Assembly (NCBI GenBank): GCA_900473175.1
Contig: UCKM01000011.1
Location: forward strand, 1-64,000
Source: Hyphomicrobiales bacterium
Lineage (GTDB): Bacteria; Pseudomonadota; Alphaproteobacteria; Rhizobiales; Rhizobiaceae
Length of the DNA stretch: 64,000 nt
Direction of reading: 5' to 3'
In this document: one piece after another, positions 43,936 to 46,586 of the stretch
How positions within the stretch are numbered: the stretch's first letter is position 1
How the letters are laid out: each line of letters starts with the position of its first letter
Translations under genes and position numbers: made by a program
Notes under the pieces: generated by a model
What the model was told of the DNA's origin: nothing
The model's database searches: none
What the model saw: only the letters and a program-made list of their open reading frames with translations

Positions 43936-45188
43936 CCCGCGGCCCCGAGGATTGGCCGACCTTCGACGGCGCTGGTTACGCATTCGGCCATCGAACCGTA
44001 GATGACGCCGTAGCCGGTGTTGCCCGGTGCATAATGGGCGAACTTGCCGGAATTGGTCATAAGCACCGCTCCCGGGATGTCGGGCAATATCGGCGTTACC
44101 ACCACGCAGGTATCGGCGACGATAACGACGCCGCAGGCTTCGAGCGCCGCCCGGCTGCCGCTCGCCTCTAGCGCCGCGAGCGCGTGGCGGCCGGTGCAGG
44201 CGTAGAGCGGCATTTTGAGGTGGCGCCCGGCGATCAACGCCTCCAGCCGGTCGAACTCTTCAACCGACAGATGCGGACTGCCGATGGCGACGGCATCGAG
44301 CCTGTCCATGGTGACTGCGGTCGAGAGTCGCCGGCGCGAGTCGTTGACCATTGCGCCGGTGACGCGGATGACCGCCAGCGGTGGTTGGTGCTGGAGGGCA
44401 GCGGCGAGATCGGACGCCTCGGGCGTGACCCCCGCCACGTGGAACAGACCGACCGCGCCGGCGGACGCTGCGGCGGCGCCAAACGCTTTGAGTGCGTCTT
44501 CGCCAGGATCGGCCGTGATGCCCGCAACGACGCCCACCGCATCGCCCAGTTCGCGGCCGTAAAGGCTGCCGAGGATCGGAAAGGCAACCTCGGAGCGAAG
44601 GAATGCAGGATCGAGACCGGATACATCGAAGACCACGGTTGCGCGGCGGTTTTCCGGACGGTGAAAGCCGTAATAAGGAGCATAGCCCGAAATGGCGCAG
44701 GCAATGTCGAGGAAATCGCCATAACGGTTGGTGCGCGCACCGAGAACGGAATTGCAGAATACCACGGCGTTCGATTCGCCCCAGGCGACGTCCGTACCAC
44801 GGGCAGGGCGGTGGCCTGCCTGATAGGGCGCGCAGGTCCAGCTCGGCTCGCAGCCGAGCTTGCGATAAGCGTCCATCATGCGCCGTGCCATGGCACGTTC
44901 ATGCAGCGGCAGGAGGTTCTTCGAACAGCCAGTCAGGTCGATCGAGCCGACATTGAGTGTGGCGCGCACCGCGACCCTCGCATCCCCTGCCACCAGTTTT
45001 TCGGCGAAGAGCGTACCCGAATCGCCATGATAAAGCGCTCCATCGATATGCGCGGAGGCAATGGGGATCAGCGAGGGCGCCTCCATCAGGCGAGCCGTCG
45101 CCGCGACAATCCGCATGGCCATGGCGGCGCCTTCACCGCGAATACCATTTGCGATCGCCTGCTGTTCGGCGGTCAGTTCAAGTGGCAT
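43932..45188 (-). CDS. aconitase X catalytic domain protein (AcnX large subunit)
   Basis: The 418-residue large subunit. It has GDSGTLFAEKLVAG (about 55-68), the substrate/cluster region SIDLTGCSKNLLPLHE (about 82-97), CEPSWTCAPYQAGHRP and WGESNAVVFCNSVLGARTNRYGDF (about 135-158), and near the end GKFAHYAPGNTGYGVIYGS. Cysteines in TGCSKN, TCAPY and CNSV may bind an iron-sulfur cluster. Substrate is most likely cis-3-hydroxy-L-proline by analogy with characterised split AcnX; no proline racemase or reductase gene is adjacent. It overlaps the MoeB-like gene upstream by 11 bp. Confidence 0.88.
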   Translation of the reverse strand: MPLELTAEQQAIANGIRGEGAAMAMRIVAATARLMEAPSLIPIASAHIDGALYHGDSGTLFAEKLVAGDARVAVRATLNVGSIDLTGCSKNLLPLHERAMARRMMDAYRKLGCEPSWTCAPYQAGHRPARGTDVAWGESNAVVFCNSVLGARTNRYGDFLDIACAISGYAPYYGFHRPENRRATVVFDVSGLDPAFLRSEVAFPILGSLYGRELGDAVGVVAGITADPGEDALKAFGAAAASAGAVGLFHVAGVTPEASDLAAALQHQPPLAVIRVTGAMVNDSRRRLSTAVTMDRLDAVAIGSPHLSVEEFDRLEALIAGRHLKMPLYACTGRHALAALEASGSRAALEACGVVIVADTCVVVTPILPDIPGAVLMTNSGKFAHYAPGNTGYGVIYGSMAECVTSAVEGRPILGAAG

Positions 45189-45963
45189 CGCCTGAACGCT
45201 TGCGCGCCTTGTATTTGATCGTCTCGAAACGCGAGGTCAGCGCATCGTAAAGGAGAAGGCGGCCGACGAGGGGCTCGCCTATACCGGCGATGAGCTTGAT
45301 TACCTCGGCAGCCTGCAGCGTACCGATGACACCAGGCAACACGCCGAGCACACCCGCCTCGGCGCAGGCCGGCACCAGGCCGGGCGGCGGCGGCTTGGGG
45401 AAGAGGTCGCGGTACGAGGGGTTCGGAACCCCGTCTGCGCTCGTCCCATAGGGCATCAGCGTGGTAACGGAACCGTCGAACCGTCCTAGCGCCGCCGAGA
45501 CCAGCGGCCGCTTCTCGGCAAGGCACGTATCCGCCAGAAGATAGCGCGTGTCGAAATTGTCGGAACCGTCGACGACGATGTCGTAACGGTGCACGAGTTC
45601 AGCCACATTGTCCGGCGCGATGCGCGTTTCGTGTGTCTCGACGATGACATGTGGATTGATCGCGGCAATCGCCCGTGCCGCGCTCTCGACCTTCGCCGAA
45701 CCGACGAGGTCGGAACTATGTATGATCTGGCGCTGCAGATTGGAAAGCGATACGCGGTCATCATCGATGACACCCAACGTGCCGACGCCGGACGCCGCCA
45801 GATATTGCAGCACCGGCGCCCCGAGCCCGCCAGCACCGACGACGAGGACACGGGCGCGTTTCAGCTTCTGCTGGCCCGGCCCGCCAATCTCACCAAGGAT
45901 GATATGGCGGGCGTAGCGCTCGATTTCAGCAGGCGTGAGGGAGGTGCTTTGCGGATCAGTCAT
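45178..45963 (-). CDS. MoeB/ThiF/HesA-family adenylyltransferase
   Basis: A 261-residue E1-like ATP-dependent adenylyltransferase. VLVVGAGGLGAPVLQYLAASGVGTLGVIDDDRVSLSNLQRQIIH (about 39-82) gives the nucleotide site and arginine; DGSDNFDTRYLLAD and CAEAGVLGVLPGVIG follow. The zinc site is unusual: MoeB's CYRC is SYRD here and the C-terminal CPxC is missing, so no zinc ribbon forms. MoeB (sulfur activation for molybdopterin) is the default reading. It overlaps the aconitase X gene by 11 bp, so the three genes form one operon. Confidence 0.85.
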   Translation of the reverse strand: MTDPQSTSLTPAEIERYARHIILGEIGGPGQQKLKRARVLVVGAGGLGAPVLQYLAASGVGTLGVIDDDRVSLSNLQRQIIHSSDLVGSAKVESAARAIAAINPHVIVETHETRIAPDNVAELVHRYDIVVDGSDNFDTRYLLADTCLAEKRPLVSAALGRFDGSVTTLMPYGTSADGVPNPSYRDLFPKPPPPGLVPACAEAGVLGVLPGVIGTLQAAEVIKLIAGIGEPLVGRLLLYDALTSRFETIKYKARKRSGDAT

Positions 45964-46014: not shown

Positions 46015-46329
46015 TCAGGCGAGAAATTTGAGTCCGCCGATGCCAGAAACGATGAGCCCGATACAGACGAGGCGGATCACCGTCGCGGGTTCGGCGAAGA
46101 GGTACATGCCGAGCAGCGCCGTGCCGACAGTGCCGATACCGGTCCAGACCGCATAGGCGCTGCCGACGGGCAGTTCACGCAGCGCAAGGCCGAGTAAAAT
46201 AACGCTTATCACCATACTGGCGGCGGTGAGGATGGATGGGGTGAGCCGCGTGAAGCCATCGGTATATTTGAGCCCGATGGCCCAGCCGATTTCGAAAAGT
46301 CCTGCAGCGACGAGTATAATCCAGGCCAT
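46015..46329 (-). CDS. gdx: SMR exporter, Gdx/SugE type (guanidinium exporter)
   Basis: A 104-residue four-helix small multidrug resistance protein that works as a dimer. E13 ([23 protein letters not shown]) is the essential proton/substrate carboxylate; [14 protein letters not shown] and [16 protein letters not shown] are SugE/Gdx-type, distinct from EmrE. A guanidine-II riboswitch lies directly upstream, supporting guanidinium/H+ antiport. ATG 46329 has GGAGG at good spacing. Transcribed alone, away from the DUF1254 gene. Confidence 0.93.
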
Positions 46330-46353
46330 GACGACCTCCTTCACATTCTTGAA

Positions 46354-46412
46354 CGGGCCGTCCCGGATTTGACTGGAAGCGCCTTGTGCTTGCGGCGTGG
46401 AGGTCGTCCCCC
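46354..46412 (-). promoter_or_regulatory. guanidine-II (mini-ykkC) riboswitch
   Basis: Read on the minus strand, hairpin P1 (46412-46399) is GGGGG, ACGA loop, CCTCC; hairpin P2 (46365-46354) is CGGG, ACGG loop, CCCG, separated by 33 bases. Both loops fit the ACGR consensus of mini-ykkC. The P1 sequence GACGACCTCC (46408-46399) is a perfect 10-nt complement of GGAGGTCGTC (46339-46330), the Shine-Dalgarno region up to the ATG. Guanidine stabilising P1/P2 would free the ribosome site. Confidence 0.88.
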
Positions 46413-46586
46413 TGACGATCTATTTAAGAATTGTCCGTGCAATTGGCAAGCCTGGCACGGCGTGAGTAAAATTGGTGCATAAGTTCAAGCGCAATGAAGG
46501 CTCAACCCACCCCGAATTAACTGTTACGTACTTAATCCGGACGCTACGTTGTGATCCATTTGCGGCATTTCAATAAGAGGTGTTCC

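Follow-up and report, generated by a model that had tools for sequence, protein, structure and literature searches.

A candidate guanidine-II riboswitch with a structured linker, and a ribosome-binding site complementary to its hairpin loops, upstream of a predicted rhizobial guanidinium exporter gene

Results

The exporter gene and its leader

The window (the whole 64,000-nt stretch that we analysed) contains on its minus strand a gene for a predicted SugE/Gdx-type guanidinium exporter, preceded by two hairpins with ACGR loops, P1 and P2, which can be read directly from the letters between 46412 and 46330 (Table 1). They are as the first-pass annotation had described them, with loops ACGA and ACGG, a linker of 33 nt between P1 and P2, and 24 nt from P2 to the exporter ATG (46329).

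Table 1. Features of the exporter locus, in window positions
Feature	Position	Strand	Description
-35-like box CTTGCC	46445..46450	-	18 nt from the -10-like box
-10-like box TAAATA	46421..46426	-	ends 8 nt before P1
P1 hairpin	46399..46412	-	GGGGG-ACGA-CCTCC, 5 bp including one G-U
GACGACCTCC, P1 loop and 3' arm	46399..46408	-	anti-SD candidate 1 (OFF1); exact 10-bp complement of 46339-46330
PL hairpin	46380..46397	-	directly after P1; CGCC/GGCG, 4 bp in the window
P2 hairpin	46354..46365	-	CGGG-ACGG-CCCG, 4 bp, loop ACGG
GACGGCC, P2 loop and 3' arm	46356..46362	-	anti-SD candidate 2 (OFF2); 7 bp, one G-U, with 46336-46330
RBS word GGAGGTCGTC	46330..46339	-	Shine-Dalgarno sequence (SD) plus complement of the ACGA loop
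SugE/Gdx-type SMR guanidinium exporter (predicted)	46015..46329	-	104 aa; NCBIfam SugE equivalog

The Gdx-type assignment made at first pass held up well, with transport predicted from sequence: the protein scores 132.9 bits against the NCBIfam SugE equivalog model (cut-off 126), its top PDB match is 6wk5 (E 6e-30), which we take to be Gdx-Clo, and it has the Gdx-subtype residues E13, W16, S42 and W62 (positions counted by hand). In the part of PMC7695847 available to us, W16 is given as conserved in Gdx and replaced by Gly or Ala in Qac, and roles of W16, S42 and W62 are described. An orthologous exporter, 86-100% identical, occurs in 20 of 20 genomes of the window's genus, its own included; a named Shinella orthologue, among the best 80 of 583 named matches, is only 71% identical, which makes Shinella an unlikely source of the window; no 16S gene was found in the window's own genome. 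A gene for a MoeB/ThiF-like adenylyltransferase (45178-45963) follows the exporter gene on the same strand after a gap of 51 nt and might be co-transcribed with it.

Both hairpins are present in the leaders of all 20 orthologous exporters (own genome included). Across the genus two of the five P1 stem pairs have changed on both sides, and the P1 loop is ACGA in nine leaders, ACGG in nine and ACGC in two. The P2 stem is invariant in 20/20; 19 leaders have the P2 loop ACGG and one, L048, has ACAG. The linker diverges among these orthologues, unlike the RBS word. Three leaders that are otherwise intact carry natural loops outside ACGR (P1 ACGC in L033 and L034, P2 ACAG in L048), and their response to ligand may differ.

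Upstream of P1, a pattern search found a spacer of exactly 18 nt between CTTGCC and a TAAATA-like box in 19 of the 20 genus leaders (the pattern missed the -10 box of L044), with 5-8 nt from the end of the -10-like box to the P1 stem in 19/20. We take the boxes to resemble a rhizobial sigma-70 promoter. Because the -10-like box ends so close to P1, the mRNA is predicted to start there: it probably begins at or beside P1.

Assignment to the guanidine-II class

Is the element a guanidine-II RNA despite its Rfam score? At the Rfam cut-off cmscan returned no match in the whole 64-kb window, and a local search gave RF01068 (guanidine-II, mini-ykkC) 16.1 bits (E 0.31 against 4227 families), where the gathering cut-off of 32 bits is a threshold set by curators rather than a biochemical property that defines guanidine-II RNAs. 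The Rfam alignment of the element needs a 15-nt insertion, which suggests that Rfam misses it because of its long linker and weak P1. A covariance model made from 19 genus relatives, with the window sequence omitted, scored the element at 59.6 bits (E 5.9e-14, a rough value), the runner-up being 11.2 bits in the 64 kb and 19 bits (E 0.117) in its own genome. Since relatives pass the Rfam cut-off (5 of 20 genus leaders) and the leave-one-out model is strong, we did not take the miss as a refutation. The Rfam search proposed at first pass as a check came out below the cut-off whereas the model of relatives recognised the element clearly, and guanidine-II identity is well supported by the comparison of the 20 orthologue leaders. 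Two ACGR-loop hairpins lie in the order P1-linker-P2, close to the RBS, with a guanidine exporter gene downstream; judged by these features, guanidine-II is the class that suits the element best, as a variant with a structured linker. In the guanidine-II class, guanidinium clamps the P1 and P2 loops to each other. That the P1 and P2 loops of the window would bind guanidinium, and would turn expression ON, is carried over from the class.

Complementarity between the RBS word and the aptamer loops

The first-pass annotation had reported a perfect match between P1 and the RBS, and GACGACCTCC (46408-46399) is indeed the exact 10-nt reverse complement of GGAGGTCGTC (46339-46330). When the RBS region of the window was shuffled with the SD fixed, 0 of 300 shuffles equalled this complementarity (p 0.003). 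The word GGTCGTC stands ahead of the ATG in 19 of the 20 genus orthologues (GGTCGC in L048), its non-SD part being conserved too, and it is preceded by GGAT in 17, by GGAGG in L028 and L030 and by GGAAGG in L048. The nine ACGG P1 loops keep the pair with the RBS as G-U and the two ACGC loops (L033, L034) break one pair; in these two leaders P2-RBS pairing is retained. P1 and P2 share a core, and therefore either could capture the RBS. The RBS helices are near-invariant, so that covariation gives no proof of them.

How widespread is this complementarity? With the RBS shuffled around a fixed SD, p <= 0.05 was reached in 15/20 genus leaders, 1/24 family leaders and 5/38 other leaders, and in 9/44 named leaders (from the best 80 of 583 matches). 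The family leaders comprised 27 further ones, of 49 family matches, 24 of them with two hairpins by our filter (not so L060, L063 and L065). The 38 others derive from 57 Rfam-matched loci, of which four were without two hairpins (L003, L090, L102, L106) and two without a start (L006, L020); of the 51 left, eight repeated genus orthologues and five had doubtful starts (L001, L013, L018, L025, L026). Among the named loci, which are the best 80 of 583 matches, 48 had two hairpins and 44 were tested for complementarity. Bradyrhizobium leaders with two detected hairpins reached p <= 0.05 in 7/9 (12 loci fetched, among the best 80 of 583 matches), and P2 was the stronger RBS partner in eight of these nine; in L155 (Xanthobacteraceae), from the same 80 of 583 matches, a P1 loop ACGG is matched by an RBS GGGCCG. 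Because the counts are high in the genus and in Bradyrhizobium, whose rows are each of related sequences and not independent counts, and elsewhere low, mostly at chance level, we conclude from these sequences that the predicted RBS-loop pairing is a recurrent, not a universal, expression platform.

In four alphaproteobacterial leaders (L093, L091, L115 and L114) the stretch from P2 to the ATG resembles a small hairpin around the SD (CATGGA..TCCATG in L093), possibly another expression platform.

Which hairpin would hide the RBS?

The folds predicted for the leaders depend on how much coding sequence is included. Over the 20 genus leaders with 12-90 coding nt (37 °C), the P2 arm was paired with the RBS at more than 0.5 in 6-17 and the P1 arm in 0-2, and with 60 coding nt neither arm exceeded 0.5 in 13/20. 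The 14-nt RBS paired mainly with the loop and 3' arm of P2 in 14/20 leaders, with the stretch from P2 to the RBS in 5/20 and with the linker in 1/20. In L031, P1-arm pairing is 0.85 at 33 coding nt, yet P1 is folded at 0.80 with 30; in L048, with its ACAG loop, RBS pairing is weak. In the consensus fold, P(OFF1) and P(OFF2) sum to about 0.96.

Could P2 do this alone, its loop and 3' arm, with the first codons, masking the RBS while P1 stays folded? We regard this as a serious contender that nonetheless falls short of being probable. The window ensemble places the RBS on the P2 arm at about 0.88-0.96 whenever at least 12 coding nt are included (+12 to +150), and at 37 °C, for RNAs that include 12-90 nt of coding sequence, the values are 0.89-0.96 for the P2 arm and only 0.00-0.02 for the P1 arm; P2 is invariant in 19/20 of the genus and the usual stronger partner in the Bradyrhizobium leaders given above, and an E. 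coli deletion over P2 (PMC13064478, discussed below) points the same way. However, in constrained consensus energies from the 111-column alignment OFF2 (-22.8 kcal/mol) is 0.9 kcal/mol worse than OFF1 (-23.7; the ON form with P1, PL and P2 is at -21.1), and P2 acting alone leaves unexplained the 10-bp match of P1, which the genus has retained, though with a bulge.

The version put forward at first pass, with the 3' half of P1 as the sole anti-SD, would leave P2 folded when the switch is OFF, and seems to us doubtful. P1 does form the strongest duplex with the RBS (-18.8 vs -11.3 kcal/mol for P2), the RNAalifold consensus structure chooses the P1 arm, and window RNA stopping at the AUG pairs it at 0.98 (37 °C); but the same RNA takes P2 as soon as 12 coding nt are present, the ACGC loop of L033 and L034 breaks a P1 pair, and the hairpin that folds first would have to be opened. 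What stands of that version, with good support from comparison, is an anti-SD derived from the aptamer; P1 is one of two near-equal partners, P2 being the other. In view of the length-dependent folds and the near-equal consensus energies, we hold that the predicted anti-SD sits in the aptamer hairpins, with P2 likelier than P1 at equilibrium and P1 possibly the first to pair.

A third hairpin in the linker

The linker of the window contains a hairpin, PL, that is absent from the first-pass description. In 20/20 genus linkers a hairpin of 3 bp (L044) to 9 bp begins at most 2 nt from P1, and while the linkers vary from 25 to 36 nt (s.d. 3.33), the remainder between PL and P2 is 11-14 nt (s.d. 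0.80). In the alignment 84.1% of PL cells are paired, against at most 52.1% in slid versions. Covariation is 0.116 against 0.048 in shuffles (0 of 500 reach 0.116) and 0.088 with a slide of +1; three PL pairs have changed on both sides, a number equalled by 152 of 500 shuffles. The covariation of PL is, then, mixed but mostly positive.

A second type of leader was recovered by P1 and P2 sequence alone (P1 AGACGRCT, then P2 GRGGACGRCC), a definition made after the hairpins had been noticed. It comprises 18 of the 107 leaders scanned, seven from the same family and 11 named, the latter from the best 80 of 583 matches and including Rhizobium, Sinorhizobium/Ensifer and Shinella. In 18/18 a hairpin starts at most 1 nt after P1, and the remainder to P2 is 7 or 8 nt (s.d. 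0.50) in linkers of 20-36 nt (s.d. 4.57); the first four letters of the arm take ten different forms and shuffle p is <= 0.05 in 14/18. The 18 include several near-copies, and leader L064, which comes from a genome of the window's family, is near-identical to L129 (Ensifer adhaerens), which suggests that this family is that of Rhizobium and Ensifer. None of the 11 named second-type leaders, the only ones of this type that were scanned and all among the best 80 of 583 matches, passed the Rfam cut-off; 2/6 of the short-linker leaders scanned also fell below it. Linkers outside both groups fold mostly weakly; a few have a hairpin, among them L024, L166 and L066 (not abutting P1 in L066), and these were left out of the 18.

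Might PL be a by-product of GC-rich sequence and no structural element? Per-linker shuffle p ranges from 0.004 to 0.119 in the genus, <= 0.05 in 13 leaders and above it in seven; the window stem is short (4 bp, p 0.06) and disappeared from four of the five predictions that included at least 30 coding nt, and both-side pair changes do not exceed those of shuffles. Against these points stands the spread of the remainder relative to that of the whole linker, both in the genus and in the 18 second-type leaders, which were recovered without use of the hairpin, and we think the by-product explanation unlikely. According to the portion of the account of Huang et al. available to us (PMC5486947), the linker of the bound RNA has to bridge both stems, 49 Å for 14 nt; such a geometry would favour a tether of fixed length with a hairpin next to P1. 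We found no description of a linker hairpin in the guanidine-II class in open-licence PMC literature.

Discussion

In our judgement the locus very probably carries a guanidine-II riboswitch that would act as a translational ON switch for a guanidinium exporter, with the RBS hidden by either P1 or P2. RNA polymerase would start at P1, and P1, PL and P2 would then fold one after another. The emerging RBS word GGTCGTC would invade either P1 or P2 and pair there with the 3' arm and the ACGR loop, so that the SD and the region beside the start codon would be hidden; guanidinium, by joining the P1 and P2 loops, would block the invasion and leave the RBS free. PL would pack on P1 and hold the single-stranded tether to P2 at constant length. 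Sensing and switching would be a single event, since the RBS would compete for the very bases of the loops to which the ligand binds. What our data show of this model is the sequence and its conservation, together with counts of base pairs and energies as predicted; binding, kinetics and the direction of control are inferred. That the leader is instead a relic whose hairpins remain after guanidine sensing was lost in this species, as the low Rfam score, the G-U in P1 and the exceptional loops of three relatives might hint, is very improbable given the intact loops (ACGA/ACGG) and stems of the window and given how strongly the loops, the spacing of the promoter-like boxes and the RBS word are conserved.

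How does the element compare with known guanidine-II switches? Like RF01068 it is an ACGR hairpin pair near the RBS of a guanidinium exporter gene, with translational ON control expected; the RF01068 consensus linker is unpaired, whereas that of the window carries a third hairpin and the score lies below the cut-off. With E. coli gdx/sugE it has in common P1 ACGA, P2 ACGG and the exporter type. The E. coli gdx linker is short and, in the model outlined in the available parts of PMC9300104 and PMC9094411, holds the anti-SD, whereas in the window the candidates for this role are the loops and arms of the aptamer. In E. coli ZX-1 a 20-bp deletion over P2 accompanied raised gdx expression, which the authors call constitutive (PMC13064478, seen in part); the RNA-seq there is exploratory (n = 1 per condition), the deletion is presumed to be the cause and the switch is drawn differently. 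The observation fits a repressing role of P2, as repression that needs P2 would be lost with it. Predicted folds of the E. coli leader (RBS-P2 0.26-0.33 up to +30 and 0.01 at +60; RBS-linker <= 0.05) back a repressing P2 only weakly.

The guanidine-II element of P. aeruginosa was demonstrated to be a translational switch by RelE cleavage, a P0 helix from its 5' flank has been proposed, and a mutation in its pocket (L1) keeps the switch OFF (from what is available of PMC9561414). In the window the promoter-like boxes, fixed against P1, would leave no 5' flank for a switch of this P0 type with the RBS, which we therefore set aside. For Gloeobacter violaceus, the excerpts of PMC5486947 at hand give a linker of 14 nt and suggest a stem that overlaps P2 and the RBS and is exclusive with the folded aptamer. 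That overlap is close to a version for the window in which P2 acts alone; the window differs in that its linker is structured and P1 could serve too.

Taken as a whole, the comparisons lead us to give an even chance to an overlooked rhizobial P1-PL-P2 subclass, in which PL would be free in sequence and length and stacked on P1, with a tether of 7-8 or 11-14 nt, and in which, in the window's genus, the RBS would be a third partner of the ligand loops and either aptamer hairpin an anti-SD. Doubts have been voiced about contact in cis between P1 and P2 (PMC7544219, PMC9094411), and published models disagree on how guanidine-II RNAs control the ribosome site (PMC9300104, PMC9561414, PMC5486947), as far as the available portions of these papers go. 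A natural series in which the linker hairpin varies in length and sequence at a constant tether, and in which the RBS may compete for the ligand loops, would offer direct tests on both points. The Rfam cut-off loses 15 of the 20 genus leaders and all 11 named second-type leaders (among the best 80 of 583 matches).

Further guanidine-II loci were seen in the course of this work. In six loci of the same genus (L006, L009, L013, L018, L020, L026) a stand-alone gene for ATP synthase subunit a is preceded by a second guanidine-II element, the gene call being made by Pfam (ATP-synt_A, E 6.3e-64) on L009, the other five being similar frames and that of L013 being without the same start. L009 has a further ACGR hairpin pair and an SMR gene downstream, and L020 likewise has a downstream SMR gene. 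In L005 a guanidine-II element precedes a DUF1989 protein (Pfam, on L005 only), with the same start in L004 and L008; upstream frames in L005 resemble, by eye, parts of an ABC transporter.
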